This document shows, one piece after another, positions 3,661 through 51,908 of a stretch of DNA of 53,948 nucleotides (its first letter is position 1; every line of letters starts with the position of its first letter). The stretch lies in the NCBI GenBank assembly GCA_946538525.1, contig CAMNGU010000002.1, positions 1-53,948 on the forward strand, given 5' to 3'. The position numbers and the translations under genes were made by a program. Source of the DNA: an uncultured Lachnospiraceae bacterium. GTDB lineage: Bacteria; Bacillota; Clostridia; Lachnospirales; Lachnospiraceae. The notes beneath the pieces were generated by a model that was not told where the DNA came from, ran no database searches, and worked only from the letters and a program-made list of their open reading frames with translations.

Positions 3661-3756
3661 ACAAAATTATACATAAATATTTTAAAATTTCAATTGAAAA
3701 TACTTACAAAAAAACCTCTTCAGTCCTTATATAAGTTATCACTTTAGATTATTACT

Positions 3757-16940: not shown

Positions 16941-16976
16941 AGATAATCCATTTTCAAAAAAGAATAATCGTATTAA

Positions 16977-17145
16977 CCGTAGCACTCCATCCTGCATGCA
17001 AGATGACAGTCCCTGAACTATTAATCCAAGTCCCAGATCATATAACCACTGGAATTATATGTCTTCGGCGATGTCCCCTTTCATATATCCTCATATGAGC
17101 CAGTCTCATCAGACATACTACTTTTGTCGATCGCATCCTCTACAT
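16977..17145 (-). promoter_or_regulatory. Lysine riboswitch (L box)
   Basis: The minus strand carries the lysine riboswitch signature in order: GTAGAGGATGCG, AGTAGTATGTC, GAAAGGGGACATCGCCGAAG, CTGGGACTTG, GGGACTGTCATC and GGAGTGCTAC. GTAG at the 5' end pairs with CTAC at the 3' end to form P1. The GCCGAAG and GGACTGTC segments are the most conserved parts of this class. It sits directly upstream of dapA with a terminator between, the expected arrangement for lysine-repressed synthesis genes. Confidence 0.95.
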
Positions 17146-17153
17146 TCTCATCA

Positions 17154-47166: not shown

Positions 47167-49233
47167 CTATTTATTCATTAATGTGATCATCTTCTCAATA
47201 TCATATTCTCTGATAACCTGAACGCCTTCTGGACACTCAACCGACTTATCAGTAACGACAACTTCAGCTTCTGATATATCAGATACTACTTCCGTAGCCA
47301 TCATCTCAAAGAATGAATACACATTAATGACATCAGTCAAGTGGAAATAGTCTGTAATAAAATCCATATTGGTTGTTCCTGCAACCCTTGCCGCACTTTC
47401 TCTAGCGATATTAAGCCAGATAAAATCATTTGTCTCGAGATCAACTCCAAAAAGATAAGCAAATGTACTTTCTGAATCAACCAAAAATGATGACTTAACT
47501 GTCTTTGGCTCATAAACTTCCCCACTGTCCTCCAAGTCTCTGGTCATATAACCAGCCTTGCAGTAGCATTTATTAAAGTCAATTCCAGTAAAAACATTAT
47601 CACAGAAAATTAAGTAATGAATATTTGGATATCTCTTTCTAAACTTCTCCATATCTATGTCAAAGTATTCTGAACCACCATAATAACCACTGGTCTCATC
47701 ACCAGAATATACAAGTGCATCCGACTGATTATGTGCCATGGTTCTCCAGGAAAATTCTTTTCTATTACCATTATCATCAATTCCAAATACTGAAAGATCG
47801 ATATCATCAACCTTCTCCCAGTAGGTAAAAGCACGAAGTTTCTTAGTTTCTGGAATTCTAATTCTGGAACCTTTCGTAAGAACTCCAAATCCGCCCTGAG
47901 AAGTATTTTCCTGAATTGGAAGAGCATAGCTTTTCATAGCTGGATCAATATAAACCTTCCCCAGTCTATTCTTCAAAACTCTTTCGAGATTCTTAGTTAT
48001 CTCATCCGCCAGCATATTTGCCTGACCCTCTGATATGATAGACTTTCTCTTCTTCTTTTCATCTTCAGTTTCCATATGAGTTATAAGTCTATTGTACTTT
48101 GTGAACTTAAATGTTCTTGCCTGATTTCCTGACTTATACTGAGAATACTGAATAAGCAGCTGAATCAATACGATAACATTATCTGTATCTATACAATCAA
48201 TGATATACTTCAGATCATCAACACTCTCGCATCTACTGATTATATAGTTAAGATTTCTAAGAACTGCTGCAGATCCTTTACCTGTCTTTAATGCATCCAC
48301 TGCTGTCTTAACATTCTTCTCAGTCATAGCCTTTTCAAATGCAGAATAAACAGAAAGATTCTCGTTACCTCTCATGGCATCCACGAAAGCCTTAGCCTCT
48401 TCAGACTTTGGAACATAATGAATATGATGCAATAATCCACACCATATCTTCTTCTTTTCATAGCAGTTCTTTATATCAACTCTGCCAGAACTAAATAATA
48501 TATCTATTATCGATGTAATAAACTTTCTGTCCTGATTCTTCAGATTCAGCTTCTTAATATTTGTATTTTCATACTTCTGGAAGTTCAGTTCATCCACAAG
48601 CTTAATCACATCGGACATAGAAATATAATTAGCATAAGCATTATCTCGGAGATCAAGAATAAGCTTGATAGCTGTATTCTTTGAGCCTATACCATCAGGA
48701 ATGAAATTATTATTATCTTTTATATATTCCACAACCAAAGCATACTGCTCATCACTAAGTGGTCTTGTACCAAGAAGCAGGTCATTTATCATGTTTCCAA
48801 GTGCAGCATCAGCATCCATCTCGTTCAGGATAACAAAATCCTTAATATCCGCACCTTCTTTAAATGCAGTTCTTTCAAAGTCCTTCTCAAAAATGGAATG
48901 TCCTGCCTCAGAAAAGTCACCAAAACCATAGGTTATAGCATAATGAACCAGCTGATCAAAGAGTAGCTGATCAGCAGACAGTTCTTTTACACTCTGTGGA
49001 AAGCCCCTATAAAATGGTTCTGGAACATTTTCTCCAAGACGCTGGGATGCATACTTTATCATCTCTCTTGATACAAGTTTCTCACCCTCAGTAATTCTGA
49101 TATTGAAGAGATTTGCCAACGCAAAAATAGTATCAAACTGAATTTCAGTTGACTCGATATTACCCTCATTAACAAGGATATGTTTGTTAAATAAATATTT
49201 TTTATATATGTTTTTCATTTTGTTTTTTGCCAT
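47167..49233 (-). CDS. Helical-repeat protein with C-terminal TerD-like domain (Ro60-like position)
   Basis: A 688-residue protein without signal or membrane segment. Residues about 1-430 are helical and look like alpha-alpha repeats (LVHYAITYGFGDFSEAGHSI; AFEKAMTEKNVKTAVDALKT; AAVLRNLNYIISRCESVDDL). Residues about 460-590 match the TerD fold: LRAFTYWEKVDDIDLSVFGI, ALVYSGDETSGYYGGSEYFD, and HYLIFCDNVFTG. TerD domains bind calcium and belong to stress-response systems. The last 100 residues are a helical extension. Ro60 proteins combine helical repeats with a vWA domain; I see no DxSxS metal site here, so this is not a standard Ro60. It lies directly after three Y-RNA-like elements and in line with rtcB, which suggests RNA binding. 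The ribosome site is weak and covered by a hairpin. Confidence 0.65.
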   Translation of the reverse strand: MAKNKMKNIYKKYLFNKHILVNEGNIESTEIQFDTIFALANLFNIRITEGEKLVSREMIKYASQRLGENVPEPFYRGFPQSVKELSADQLLFDQLVHYAITYGFGDFSEAGHSIFEKDFERTAFKEGADIKDFVILNEMDADAALGNMINDLLLGTRPLSDEQYALVVEYIKDNNNFIPDGIGSKNTAIKLILDLRDNAYANYISMSDVIKLVDELNFQKYENTNIKKLNLKNQDRKFITSIIDILFSSGRVDIKNCYEKKKIWCGLLHHIHYVPKSEEAKAFVDAMRGNENLSVYSAFEKAMTEKNVKTAVDALKTGKGSAAVLRNLNYIISRCESVDDLKYIIDCIDTDNVIVLIQLLIQYSQYKSGNQARTFKFTKYNRLITHMETEDEKKKRKSIISEGQANMLADEITKNLERVLKNRLGKVYIDPAMKSYALPIQENTSQGGFGVLTKGSRIRIPETKKLRAFTYWEKVDDIDLSVFGIDDNGNRKEFSWRTMAHNQSDALVYSGDETSGYYGGSEYFDIDMEKFRKRYPNIHYLIFCDNVFTGIDFNKCYCKAGYMTRDLEDSGEVYEPKTVKSSFLVDSESTFAYLFGVDLETNDFIWLNIARESAARVAGTTNMDFITDYFHLTDVINVYSFFEMMATEVVSDISEAEVVVTDKSVECPEGVQVIREYDIEKMITLMNK

Positions 49234-49263
49234 TTAAGCTATTTCTTATAGCTATACCTTTCT

Positions 49264-49338
49264 AAACTGATATTGCCGAATTATTCCCTATATGGGTAAA
49301 CCCTTGTATCCTCCTGAAGTAAATCCGACTAGCTGTTT
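49264..49338 (-). ncRNA. Y-RNA-like element C (shortest copy)
   Basis: Minus-strand order: AAAC (49338-49335), AGCTA (49334-49330), GTCGGATT (49329-49322), TACTTC (49321-49316), apex AGGAGGATACAAGGG with a GGG-TTTA-CCC hairpin, AATTCGGC (49282-49275), AATATCA, GTTT (49267-49264). GTCGGATT pairs with AATTCGGC over 8 bp with two wobbles; AAAC pairs with GTTT. It shares the AGCTA loop, 8-bp helix and TACTTC with elements A and B. It may be part of the leader of the downstream gene. Confidence 0.55.
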
Positions 49339-49339
49339 A

Positions 49340-49418
49340 AACACTGAATCATGTCACTATTTTCCGGATTCGAACCGGCTTATCCACCTGAATTGAAGTA
49401 AGTAACATTAGCTGTGTT
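49340..49418 (-). ncRNA. Y-RNA-like element B with T-arm hairpin
   Basis: Minus-strand order: AACAC (49418-49414), AGCTA (49413-49409), ATGTTACT (49408-49401), TACTTC (49400-49395), AATTCAGGTGGATAAG, a T-arm CCGG-TTCGAAT-CCGG (49378-49364), AGTGACAT (49358-49351), GATTCA, GTGTT (49344-49340). ATGTTACT pairs with AGTGACAT over 8 bp with one wobble; AACAC pairs with GTGTT. It has a tRNA-type T loop but no D arm or acceptor strands. Confidence 0.6.
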
Positions 49419-49425
49419 AGGTATC

Positions 49426-49570
49426 AAAAGAATTGGCGATATTGATATATTAGAACTGGGCTGGCGCTCTAACCTGTTGAGCTACAATCGCAAGCGACTG
49501 ACGGGACTCGAACCCGCAATCTCCAGCATGGAATCGGTCGCGAAGTAAATATATCTAGCTGCCAATCTGT
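49426..49570 (-). ncRNA. Y-RNA-like element A with circularly permuted tRNA mimic
   Basis: Outer helix ATTGGC (49566-49561) with GCCAAT (49437-49432); loop AGCTA; helix GATATATT (49555-49548) with AATATATC (49451-49444); then TACTTC. Inside is a tRNA body in permuted order: anticodon-stem 3' strand GCTGG (49527-49523), variable AGATT, T arm GCGGG-TTCGAGT-CCCGT (49517-49501), 3' acceptor CAGTCGC (49500-49494), TT, 5' acceptor GCGATTG (49491-49485), TA, D arm GCTC-AACAGGTTA-GAGC (49482-49466), G, anticodon-stem 5' strand CCAGC (49464-49460). All stems pair. TTCTTTT follows the outer helix, so it may terminate there. This resembles the tRNA-like module of bacterial Y RNAs. The promoter is not clear; TTGACT at 49613-49608 is a candidate -35. 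Confidence 0.75.
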
Positions 49571-49626: not shown

Positions 49627-50181
49627 CTAGATAATTCCTAATCTTCCCATTCTCTTTTTCTTATTCTCGTCTAATTCTTCAAGGGTGCATGGTTCATAGT
49701 TATTCAACATACAACCGCAATTAAACGCATTTTCCTGCTTCATCATATAGACAGTATCATCATTTATTTTTGCATGTACATGACCATATACATGATAACT
49801 ATCAAAATGCTTTTTATCCCAGCAAACGATTGGAAAATGACATAGAACCACAAGTCTATCTTCATCCTTGATTCTCATAATCCATTCAGCACTTTCGAAG
49901 CGTCTCATAGCTCGTTCATCCTTCATCACAAATTGGGGATCATGATTTCCAAAAACGAGATGTATATGTCCCTTTAGTTCTTCCAAAACGGTATGCACCT
50001 CTTTAGAATCTCGATATGCTACATCTCCGACAATATATACATGATCTTCATCTCGAACCTTCGAATTCCATCTAAGTACAATCTCCTGCTCCATCTCCTT
50101 AACATCAGCAAATGGTCGGCCGTCGAACTTGATGCAGTTAGCATGTCCCAGATGAAGATCTGAAATATAATAATTCTTCAT
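49627..50181 (-). CDS. Calcineurin-like phosphoesterase (COG4186-like)
   Basis: A 184-residue phosphoesterase with intact metal motifs: YYISDLHLGHANCIKFDGRP (residues 3-22), VYIVGDVAYRD (near 48-58), HLVFGNHDPQF (near 74-84), LVLCHFPIVCWD (near 109-120) and YHVYGHVHAKI (near 128-138). This short form resembles COG4186 phosphoesterases of unknown substrate. It is in line with rtcB and the TerD-like gene, 15 bases after the XRE gene. A role in trimming phosphate ends for RtcB, which needs 2',3'-cyclic or 3'-phosphate ends, is an attractive guess only. Confidence 0.8.
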   Translation of the reverse strand: MKNYYISDLHLGHANCIKFDGRPFADVKEMEQEIVLRWNSKVRDEDHVYIVGDVAYRDSKEVHTVLEELKGHIHLVFGNHDPQFVMKDERAMRRFESAEWIMRIKDEDRLVVLCHFPIVCWDKKHFDSYHVYGHVHAKINDDTVYMMKQENAFNCGCMLNNYEPCTLEELDENKKKRMGRLGII

Positions 50182-50196
50182 AGCATTATTCTCCTT

Positions 50197-50451
50197 CTAT
50201 GCACTTTTGCAGATTTCATTTTCACGAGCTACAACAATGATGTCATCCATTCTAACTCCAAAAACCTTTGCTAATACAACAAGGTTATCAATTGTTGGAA
50301 GCGTAGTTCCACGCTGCCACTTATAAATTGCCTGTGGCGTTGTGAAGCCAAATATATCCTGCAGATCTGCAACACTGAGACCAGCTCTCTTTCGAAGTAC
50401 GGTAATGTTTCTACCAGTACCTATAGTATCAATCATTGGTATCATGTCCAT
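50197..50451 (-). CDS. XRE-family helix-turn-helix regulator
   Basis: An 84-residue protein almost wholly made of a Cro/C1-type domain: NITVLRKRAGLSVADLQDIF (residues 15-34), GFTTPQAIYKWQRGTTLPTI (residues 35-54) and a closing VLAKVFGVRMDDIIVV. AGGAGG lies five bases before the ATG at 50451. It sits between rtcB (with the structured element) and the phosphoesterase, so it probably controls this cluster. Confidence 0.85.
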   Translation of the reverse strand: MDMIPMIDTIGTGRNITVLRKRAGLSVADLQDIFGFTTPQAIYKWQRGTTLPTIDNLVVLAKVFGVRMDDIIVVARENEICKSA

Positions 50452-50490: not shown

Positions 50491-50630
50491 TTCTGAGTAG
50501 TGCCTTATTCTCGTCTTCGCTTTGCTTCGACTCGATTATCGTACTTCGTACTATAAACACCTGTCAGAATAAAACTGCTCGTGTGCAAACACTCTGCAGT
50601 TTATCTGACAGGTGTTTGCACTACTCAGAA
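50491..50630 (-). repeat. Nested inverted repeats downstream of rtcB (structured RNA candidate)
   Basis: Two perfect inverted repeats nest. The outer is TTCTGAGTAGTGC (50491-50503) with GCACTACTCAGAA (50618-50630). The inner is AAACACCTGTCAGA (50555-50568) with TCTGACAGGTGTTT (50604-50617), continued by AAACTGC/GCAGTTT and GTGT-GCAA-ACAC at the tip. A 51-base side region holds GTAC-TTC-GTAC. The outer arm overlaps the last codons and stop of rtcB. There is no T tract, so it is not a simple terminator. Confidence 0.8.
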
Positions 50631-51823
50631 GCCTTAAAATTATAAATTGGTTTTAGCACTTCTATAACATCTACTGAATCTCTGATTACATCTATAATAT
50701 CCTCAAGAGACTTATATGCCATTGGTGCCTCATCTAATGTGTTTTCATTTATGGAAGTTGTATAAACCCCCTTCATCATCTCCTGATACTCTTCCATTGA
50801 AAGGGTATCCTTCGCCACTTTTCGTGACATCAATCTTCCCGCTCCATGTGGTGCGGAATAGTTCCAGTCTGGATTACCTCTGCCTACAGCAAGAACGCTT
50901 CCGTCTCTCATATTTATAGGAATCAGAACTTTCTCACCTTTATGAGCTGCTATGGAGCCCTTTCGCAGAATCATTTCCTCTGTATCAATGTAATTATGTA
51001 TTGTGTGGAATGCTTCTCCTGGAACTATACCAGTCATCTCAAAGATAACCTCAGCTATCTTCTCTCTGTTTCGTCTGGCAAAGTTCTGACATATCTCTAC
51101 ATCGTGAAGATAATCCTCAAAATACGTTCCATACAGGTAGCAGAGATCATCCGGTATTAAGCAATCTCTCTTATTCCATTTAAGCTCCTTAAGAGCCGCC
51201 TCAATCTCACTTCTACGACCAGCAGCTTTATACTCTGCAATCAGAGCATCACGAGCTGCATAATACTCATCCTTTCCAGAGTGGATCTCCACGGCAAGTT
51301 TCTGGTAGTACTCAGCCACCTGCTTGCCCAGATTCCTACTTCCGGAATGAATTACCAGATATTTTGTTCCATCAGCAGCCTCATCTATTTCTATGAAATG
51401 ATTTCCACCGCCAAGCGTTCCTAAACTTCTCTCTACATATCTGGAATCCTTAAGTATTCTGTAGCATTTTAGTTCAGTGAGATTAAACCTCTCTTTACGA
51501 CCATCCCATACATTCATTCCGGATGGTACTGTATGACAAGCTGCATCAAACTTCTCGAAGTTAATATCCGCCTTCCCTATATTCACTGTGTACATTCCAC
51601 ATCCAATATCTACTCCAACAATGTTTGGAACAGCTTTATCTATGACAGTCATCGTTGTGCCGATAGTACATCCCTTTCCAGCATGTACATCCGGCATAAT
51701 TCTGATTCTGCTACCCTCCGTAAACTCATAGTCGCACATACGGCGTATCTGCTCTATAGCTGCATCCTCAATTATTGTTGCGTAGCATATCGCTGTATTT
51801 ATTTTTCCATTTATTACTAACAT
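50621..51823 (-). CDS. rtcB: RNA-splicing ligase RtcB
   Basis: About 400 residues. RtcB joins 2',3'-cyclic-phosphate or 3'-phosphate RNA ends to 5'-OH ends using GTP and manganese. Motifs seen: MPDVHAGKGCTIGTTMTV (near residues 44-61), GVDIGCGMYTVN (metal cysteine, near residue 73), LGGGNHFIEI, IHSGSRNLGKQVAEYY, FARRNREKI and the guanylated histidine in YSAPHGAGRLMSR (near residue 324). The ATG at 51823 has GAGGTG seven bases upstream; the longer frame from 51895 is not supported. It heads the run rtcB-XRE-phosphoesterase-Y-like RNAs-TerD-like protein, in the way rtcB often accompanies Ro60/Y RNA genes. A strong terminator isolates it from the gene before. Confidence 0.95.
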   Translation of the reverse strand: MLVINGKINTAICYATIIEDAAIEQIRRMCDYEFTEGSRIRIMPDVHAGKGCTIGTTMTVIDKAVPNIVGVDIGCGMYTVNIGKADINFEKFDAACHTVPSGMNVWDGRKERFNLTELKCYRILKDSRYVERSLGTLGGGNHFIEIDEAADGTKYLVIHSGSRNLGKQVAEYYQKLAVEIHSGKDEYYAARDALIAEYKAAGRRSEIEAALKELKWNKRDCLIPDDLCYLYGTYFEDYLHDVEICQNFARRNREKIAEVIFEMTGIVPGEAFHTIHNYIDTEEMILRKGSIAAHKGEKVLIPINMRDGSVLAVGRGNPDWNYSAPHGAGRLMSRKVAKDTLSMEEYQEMMKGVYTTSINENTLDEAPMAYKSLEDIIDVIRDSVDVIEVLKPIYNFKASE

Positions 51824-51870
51824 GGTAATCACCTCAAATTCGGATAATTTGGTTTTATTCTCTTTCGCAC

Positions 51871-51908
51871 AAAAAAAATCGCTTATCTCATTCATTTAAG
51901 ATAAGCGA
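51871..51908 (-). terminator. Intrinsic terminator upstream of rtcB
   Basis: TCGCTTATCT (51879-51888) pairs with AGATAAGCGA (51899-51908), a perfect 10-bp stem, followed on the minus strand by eight T's (51878-51871). It ends transcription from the small gene at 52003 and marks the start of the rtcB unit. Confidence 0.9.

Follow-up and report, generated by a model that had tools for sequence, protein, structure and literature searches.

Tandem Y RNAs precede the gene for a TerD-containing protein with a predicted Ro60-like fold in a Lachnospiraceae bacterium

The closest described systems are those of YrlA RNA with Rsr/Ro60, in the Salmonella rsr-yrlBA-rtcBA operon and in Deinococcus RYPER. 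In the excerpts of the sources on them (PMC7790460, PMC8394870, PMC11472068), the RNA has a stem formed by its ends and a permuted tRNA-like module, it is encoded beside its partner protein with more than one RNA per locus, and RtcB is nearby. Tandem Y RNAs next to rsr and rtcBA are already known (PMC7790460, in excerpt), and the permuted order is a known tRNA mimicry of bacterial Y RNA (PMC11472068, in excerpt). We analyzed a locus that is alike in all of these features, in 53,948 nucleotides (nt) of DNA from an uncultured Lachnospiraceae bacterium (contig CAMNGU010000002.1; this whole stretch is called the window). There, a tandem array of three elements, A, B, and C, at positions 49263-49564 on the minus strand, leads into the gene for a protein of 688 amino acids (aa). 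The window differs from the YrlA loci in that its partner protein is missed by the TROVE profile and has a TerD domain, in that the fixed loops of its RNAs are unlike the Rfam consensus, and in having short forms free of the module; one relative has, in addition, tRNA-like inserts that are not permuted. We consider it likely that the locus encodes a Ro60-type ribonucleoprotein of an unrecognized branch, with the RNAs as partners, serving tRNA or damaged or structured RNA. Computation supports the structure of the RNAs, their homology to Y RNAs, and their occurrence together with the protein and, for the protein, the TerD fold and a predicted fold like that of TROVE.

An earlier note, made from the letters of the window, had claimed three tandem minus-strand elements with a common plan, and they are found at that place. 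Each has, in order, a short outer helix, AGCTA, an 8-base-pair (bp) helix, TACTTC, an insert (90 nt in A, 36 nt in B, and 33 nt in C), the 8-bp partner, and a 3' loop. As the note said, the sequence of the 8-bp helix differs among A, B, and C, and 8/8 pairs form in each. The 3' loop, said to be close to AATATCA, is AATATC in A and C and GATTCA in B. The assembly that holds the window (2.63 Mb, 80% complete) has four occurrences of AGCTA-N8-TACTTC, three of them being A, B, and C, and none of the reversed control pattern.

Two RNA models were used: R1, built solely from RNAs adjoining this protein in the window and its relatives, and R2, a short-element model of the same origin. Element A (49434-49564, minus strand) is a full Y RNA, with a Ro-binding-type stem and a circularly permuted tRNA-like module; it scores 106.7 bits at 49428-49568 with R1, of which it is a training sequence, and is also recognized by Rfam YrlA and by covariation. 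In the module (49462-49525, minus strand), T arm, acceptor-like hairpin, and D arm follow one another in permuted order, and it corresponds to positions 23-85 of the 114 in Rfam YrlA. Element B (49341-49417, minus strand) has the same stem and an insert with a T-arm-like piece, GCCGGTTCGAATCCGG; it scores 50.9 bits with R2, for which it is a training sequence, and 32.9 bits with R1. Element C (49263-49339, minus strand), again with the same stem, is closest to the protein gene and is a possible 5' leader element. Its scores are 46.6 bits with R2 (also as a training sequence) and 20.8 bits with R1, and by eye no tRNA-like piece was seen in its insert.

The earlier note argued that conserved pairing with different sequence marks a selected RNA structure, and it named unpaired 8-bp helices in relatives as the finding that would speak against this. 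The helices do pair in relatives, and compensatory changes in the homologues bear the argument out. The elements compared came from genomes of the same genus and from 80 named loci, which were the best of 183 encoding a relative of the protein. For the A type we tested 35 RNAs, with the structure drawn from the window sequence, against 500 shuffles and controls in which the partner strand was slid. Of 1115 cells, 97.2% were paired, compared to 35.0 to 47.0% in the slid controls; both sides had changed in 28 of 33 pairs, and 0 of 500 shuffles reached the result. The inner helix was used in choosing the elements, and the outer and tRNA-like helices were not; among these helices outside the selection, 97.9% of cells were paired in the outer helix and 88.2 to 100% in the tRNA-like helices. 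For the short type (55 elements), 89.2% of 713 cells were paired (slid controls, 31.3 to 44.0%), with 99.3% in the inner helix and 72.9% in the outer helix; in two of five measures the result was no better than the shuffles, 84 and 76 of 500 of which reached it. The strict pattern gave 124 plus-strand elements in the 80 relatives' loci, 110 with 8/8 pairs and 14 with 7/8, a figure that is biased upward because the partner was picked by best pairing. When strands from different loci were crossed, only 8.3% reached 8/8 pairs.

There is very little doubt, in our view, that the elements are bacterial Y RNAs. Element A matches Rfam YrlA (RF02553) with 38.4 bits (E value, 5e-7) at 49462-49525, under the gathering score of 69. 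Its basal-stem plan (outer helix, internal loop, inner helix, module) is the same as that of the Rfam YrlA consensus, and both helices covary. RNAs beside TROVE genes are likewise under the Rfam cutoff: those of loci L143, L145, and L146 score 39.9, 39.8, and 33.8 bits, and that of L142 is absent from the Rfam YrlA matches at an E value of 0.01. These belong to six TROVE loci, taken from PF05731 matches in 6 of 249 genomes of the phylum. R1 matches upstream of TROVE in four of the six (L142, L143, L145, and L146), at full length and with 59.5 to 74.9 bits, and all four RNAs have UACUUC ending the 5' side of the stem; there was no R1 match at L141. Long open TROVE frames of 503 to 536 aa are present in four of the six loci (L142 to L145), three of which have the RNA, and the TROVE match of L146 is partial, with an internal stop. 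Because R1 finds RNAs upstream of TROVE that share UACUUC, the elements are homologous to canonical Y RNAs. The Y-RNA-like reading of the earlier note is thus both upheld and sharpened, by the permuted YrlA tRNA-like module of A and by the TROVE-linked RNAs that R1 finds.

The protein gene (47167-49233, minus strand) encodes a TROVE-like helical domain at about residues 124-420 and a TerD domain at about residues 459-626; conservation starts at Met6. The match to NCBIfam NF041916 (E value, 2.3e-26; 92.2 bits against a curated cutoff of 600) covers positions 387-710 of 842. Eight relatives scanned against the same model gave 100 to 495 bits, all under the cutoff, and full-length alignment of the window protein with six NF041916 members gave 21 to 23% identity. 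The match to phrog_33734 has an E value of 2.5e-24. The window protein is homologous to these families, the MXAN_6230/SCO0854 RING family and a family of unknown function, respectively, whose descriptions name neither RNA nor Ro60. Pfam gave no match in the window protein at an E value of 0.1, and the TerD profile (PF02342) matched 1 of 33 members at an E value of 0.0027 and not the window protein. PADLOC gave no match in four proteins scanned, including the window protein and its RtcB.

The predicted structure has the TerD fold, as the earlier note's TerD-like protein would; in addition, the predicted fold of its helical part is similar to the TROVE/Ro60 ring. By eye, the TerD domain is flanked by two pieces resembling a degenerate vWA domain, and on the alignment the vWA MIDAS motif DxSxS is missing, with VYIDPAMKSY in its place and TerD following. 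When the predicted whole protein was compared to the PDB, all five distinct Ro60/TROVE sequences, which are those that a true TROVE protein finds there, were within the 13 best rows; among the 50 rows listed, they were the sole ones to align from residues 128-179 to residue 688. With the helical domain alone, ranks 1 to 5 aligned 242 to 275 of 334 residues and the other 45 rows listed aligned 56 to 120. A TROVE-type fold of the helical part is therefore quite probable on these models, with the resemblance to Ro60 lying in predicted shape and not in sequence. Given a Ro60-like predicted fold, Y RNAs beside the protein are to be expected, not odd.

A partnership of the RNAs with the protein is very probable from their co-occurrence. 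In a sample of 299 genomes of the family, R1 was counted at an E value of 1e-6 and the protein by profile. As found, R1 was in 10 genomes, the protein in 9, and both in 8 (8 of 9 protein genomes versus 2 of 290 others); after checking, the RNA was in 9 of 9 protein genomes versus 0 of 290 others, the ninth (G529) having a short element in front of the gene. The two other genomes with R1 were G729 and G567, whose matches are to tandem tRNA-Gly genes and to an RtcB-RNA-SPFH-like locus, respectively. The genomes that supplied training sequences were G000, G022, and G458 for R1 and G745 for R2, and among the family genomes that trained no model 5 of 5 had the RNA, four found by R1 and the fifth by R2. 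Among the nine genomes, five have a protein of nearly full length that is close to that of the window; it is of full length and less similar in G529, divergent in G695 and G648, and present only as fragments in G548. TROVE was found in 0 of the 299.

In the genus, the protein is in 24 of 37 genomes, and the RNA is in 23 of the 24; in the exception, G018, the gene is at a contig edge. Among the 13 genomes lacking the protein, four had an R1 match at an E value of 0.001 as found (G028, beside RtcB and an SPFH-like gene; an orphan short element in G034, adjoining a helix-turn-helix [HTH] gene that looks like the window's; and two weak matches), and 1 of 13 did after checking. Fisher's test gave a P of 9e-8 with the checked table and 5e-5 counting all four, from an uneven search that did not treat the groups alike, R2 having been run on nine genomes and R1 on thirty. 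Because most of the genomes supplied training sequences (at least G003, G007, G012, G016, G019, G020, G022, G023, G025, G027, G035, and G036), the genus count shows co-location, not independent detection. The viral contigs, the phages, the TROVE loci, genomes G529, G548, G630, G648, and G695, and the unlinked copies in G032 and G009 were not in the training sets.

All eight viral contigs found have the RNA in front of the gene, with proteins 40 to 51% identical; two pairs among the eight give identical RNA matches. Distant homologues were present in nine records of cultured phages, two of which are duplicates of another. In the three phages checked, with homologues 22 to 24% identical, the RNA is beside the gene in two. 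In Rhodococcus phage Weasels2 the gene adjoins tRNA genes; an R1 match of 69.7 bits lies just downstream of it, and RtcB lies about 3 kb downstream. In Ruegeria phage RpAliso the gene is between tRNA genes, adjoining that for tRNA nucleotidyltransferase, and two YrlA-like RNAs precede it. No RNA was seen in Lactobacillus phage LpeD. Next to the two YrlA-like RNAs of RpAliso is a permuted transfer-messenger RNA (tmRNA; L176:2753-2974, 129.5 bits).

The earlier note had proposed to ask whether matches in relatives adjoin the same protein gene, and they mostly do. Among the 72 loci in which 400 nt or more of upstream sequence is available, 62 have an element within 700 nt upstream (59 by the strict pattern and L068, L096, and L102 by the models). 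In L069 and L091 an element lies at another place on the locus, and eight loci have none there at an E value of 0.1. Two of these eight, L037 (G032) and L056 (G009), have a copy on another contig; since the sole element that R2 detects in G032 and in G009 sits on a different contig from the gene, action in trans is favored. The RNA is downstream of the gene in L091, L132, L133, and Weasels2. In the 62 loci with strict upstream elements, the median distance from the last of them to the matched start is 33 nt, and it is often 11 to 25 nt. The last element directly adjoins a likely ribosome-binding site in many loci, and in others a U-run comes after its outer stem. The graded loss of the tRNA-like module seen by the earlier note recurs in part: 26 of the 62 loci are ordered full-short or full-short-short and one full-full-short-short, and the rest have one short (16), two short (14), one full (3), or two full (2) elements.

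Locus L100 (3493-4930) has eight tandem elements, one of them weak (at 3678; E value, 0.08). Permuted modules are found in four of the elements, interspersed with three whose inserts are in ordinary tRNA order and with the weak element, which has no tRNA score. The unpermuted inserts score 45.6, 45.4, and 37.8 bits, above the Rfam tRNA cutoff, and two are called by ARAGORN, with no proper anticodon. Some elements of this array have promoter-like boxes and U-runs; overall there are 6 such boxes versus 2.5 expected and 4 terminator-like sites versus 2.0. To our knowledge, an unpermuted tRNA has not been described in any Y RNA.

We propose the following mechanism. The 688-aa protein would be a remote TROVE-fold ring in which TerD sits inside a degenerate vWA domain or takes the place of its middle part, and the three Y RNAs encoded just ahead of its gene would be its partners. 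The protein would bind the shared stem, that is, the outer helix, the AGCUA loop, the 8-bp helix, UACUUC, and a GAUAUC-like loop. The permuted tRNA-like module of A would probably be the effector end, recruiting a tRNA-handling enzyme or mimicking tRNA, and B and C, the short forms, would engage the protein but bring no effector. Element C may also tune expression of its own downstream gene, in autoregulation; a leader role is proposed for it because the last element abuts a ribosome-binding site or precedes a U-run, and as a claim by itself leader regulation by C is tentative, somewhat below an even chance. The whole system would most likely serve quality control or repair, probably of tRNA or other structured RNA, a role suggested by the RtcB, tRNA gene clusters, or tRNA nucleotidyltransferase nearby in several genomes. 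A role in the care of tRNA or structured RNA is, on our estimate, rather more probable than its absence.

Several results weigh against the elements or the proposed particle. Single-sequence energy folding of the elements is weak (z, -1.39, -1.63, and 0.03) and gives A a best fold other than the Y fold, and scanning the window's array for consensus promoters and terminators yielded neither. No RNA was found at four large-genome relatives (L134 to L137) or at a Niallia plasmid. RtcB, which in the window lies near the array (50621-51895, minus strand; PF01139; E value, 3.5e-56) as in the Rtc RNA repair operon, is on the locus in just 6 of 52 relatives (loci with at least 4 kb upstream), and in the genus its presence does not track that of the protein (16 of 24 versus 6 of 13; P, 0.19). 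The TROVE profile (PF05731) matches neither the window protein nor any of 33 members (hhalign, 1.5 to 8.6%), so sequence gives no link to TROVE; the structural matches have modest Z values and high root mean square deviations, and Foldseek gave no match at an E value of ≤0.001 for either predicted model. These last points would suit a TerD-type stress protein that has unrelated helical repeats and took over Y RNAs, its likeness to Ro60 being generic and not homology. We find this unlikely given the placing of the five Ro60/TROVE sequences among the best rows and their unique reach to residue 688, the far longer alignments of ranks 1 to 5 with the helical domain, and an RNA partner homologous to TROVE-linked Y RNAs.

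The elements could instead be mainly cis-regulatory leaders, a protein-binding autoregulatory array or an attenuator, and not trans-acting Y RNAs. Their upstream position in most loci, the closeness of the last element to the matched start or to a U-run, and the helix of C, which is nearly constant in close relatives, are what such leaders would show. A leader does not need the covarying, conserved tRNA-like module of the A-type RNAs, however, and the RNAs downstream of the gene, the elements on other contigs in G032 and G009, and the eight tandem elements of L100, some with promoter-like boxes and U-runs, also make this account improbable. That the elements are decayed tRNA genes or tRNA-derived repeats without function is barely conceivable. 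They do contain sequences of the T and D arms, in some relatives the array and gene have tRNA genes next to them (on both sides in L049 and L053), and tandem tRNAs can mimic the permuted module; but ARAGORN called no tRNA at the window's array, the RNAs are linked with one protein family, and the permuted order and the covariation through a stem that is not part of tRNA lead us to reject decayed tRNAs. We therefore retain the Ro60-type ribonucleoprotein with Y RNA partners.

Some R1 matches were rejected. In G729 three tandem tRNA-Gly genes mimic the permuted module, the weak match at L144 is to tandem tRNAs, and the match at G001:C7 is, by eye, a tandem tRNA-like sequence. The matches in G567, G028:C13, and G007:C2 were set apart as lying beside RtcB and an SPFH-like gene. 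Loci combining RtcB, a tRNA-like RNA, and SPFH/Band-7 were reportedly described by Burroughs and Aravind in 2016. L140 (1816-1881), L157, and L158 resemble these in having RtcB beside a permuted tRNA-like RNA and an SPFH/Band-7-like gene (in L140, HflK model, E value of 6.1e-11, under the cutoff; in L157 and L158, by eye). They differ from the window in the SPFH-like scaffold, and no AGCUA stem was seen; we regard them as RNA-scaffold loci of a kind related to the window's yet distinct from it. Short elements not adjoining the protein gene were also seen at L155 (G032:C10:33624-33688), L156 (G009:C46), and L160 (G035:C30); by eye, one is in front of a histidine phosphatase-like gene and two are near argininosuccinate lyase-like genes. 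At L159 (297-362), in a genome in which the protein was not found, an orphan element adjoins a terminator-like hairpin and an HTH gene that by eye is like the window's.

Upstream of the array, the window has genes for a metallophosphoesterase (49627-50181, minus strand; PF00149; E value, 1.7e-5), with a homologue on 3 of 52 loci, and for an HTH regulator (50197-50451, minus strand; PF01381; E value, 9.2e-10), with a homologue on 7 of 52 loci, one of them downstream at 44% identity. RtcB, the divergent protein, and the Y RNA are in a row in G695. The array and gene lie between tRNA genes in L053 (2067-7952) and L049 and have them on the downstream side in L048; ordinary tRNA genes are in 8 of the 57 loci (of the 80) given to ARAGORN, and in L065 an ARAGORN call lies on top of the locus's own element. 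Paired genes like WYL-type regulators are, by eye, near RtcB at L132:6097-8449 and L157:266-2090. A Clostridiales-1 RNA (L133:7797-7962, 102 bits) is on the locus of a divergent protein gene, and the window itself has a lysine riboswitch (16972-17150, minus strand; 115.7 bits).

TerD is tied to stress and phage resistance in the Ter system (PMC7824862, in excerpt). The TerD of the window differs in being part of a larger, RNA-associated protein, and the seven neighboring window proteins scanned gave no match to Ter families at an E value of 0.1. The earlier note knew of no description of a tandem array with graded loss of the tRNA module beside a TerD-like protein. Tandem Y RNAs by rsr and rtcBA are known in kind (PMC7790460, in excerpt), which refines that point; no link of TerD, Ro60, and Y RNA was found described among the literature matches listed. 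In the excerpts of PMC7824862, TerD, Ro60, and Y RNA terms are mentioned in separate contexts. As far as the literature search reached, the protein is new to this Ro60-like role.

On balance we favor a wider reading, in which NF041916, phrog_33734, and the window subfamily would form a hidden branch of the Ro60 superfamily: TROVE-fold rings with a vWA domain broken by TerD, served by Y RNAs, and spanning gut Clostridia and phages of several host phyla, in which the gene may lie amid tRNA genes together with RtcB or a tRNA nucleotidyltransferase. Its RNAs would be permuted, unpermuted, or module free, with some acting in trans. If this is true, Ro60-Y RNA particles are more widespread than sequence searches reveal. 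It would also give a ligand and a probable function to a family whose annotation is just RING or unknown, and make TerD part of a particle that handles RNA. The unpermuted inserts of L100 and the module-free forms would allow the purpose of the Y RNA tRNA mimic to be asked directly. That phages with tRNAs and RtcB of their own carry the system suggests that it helps to keep tRNAs usable during infection.
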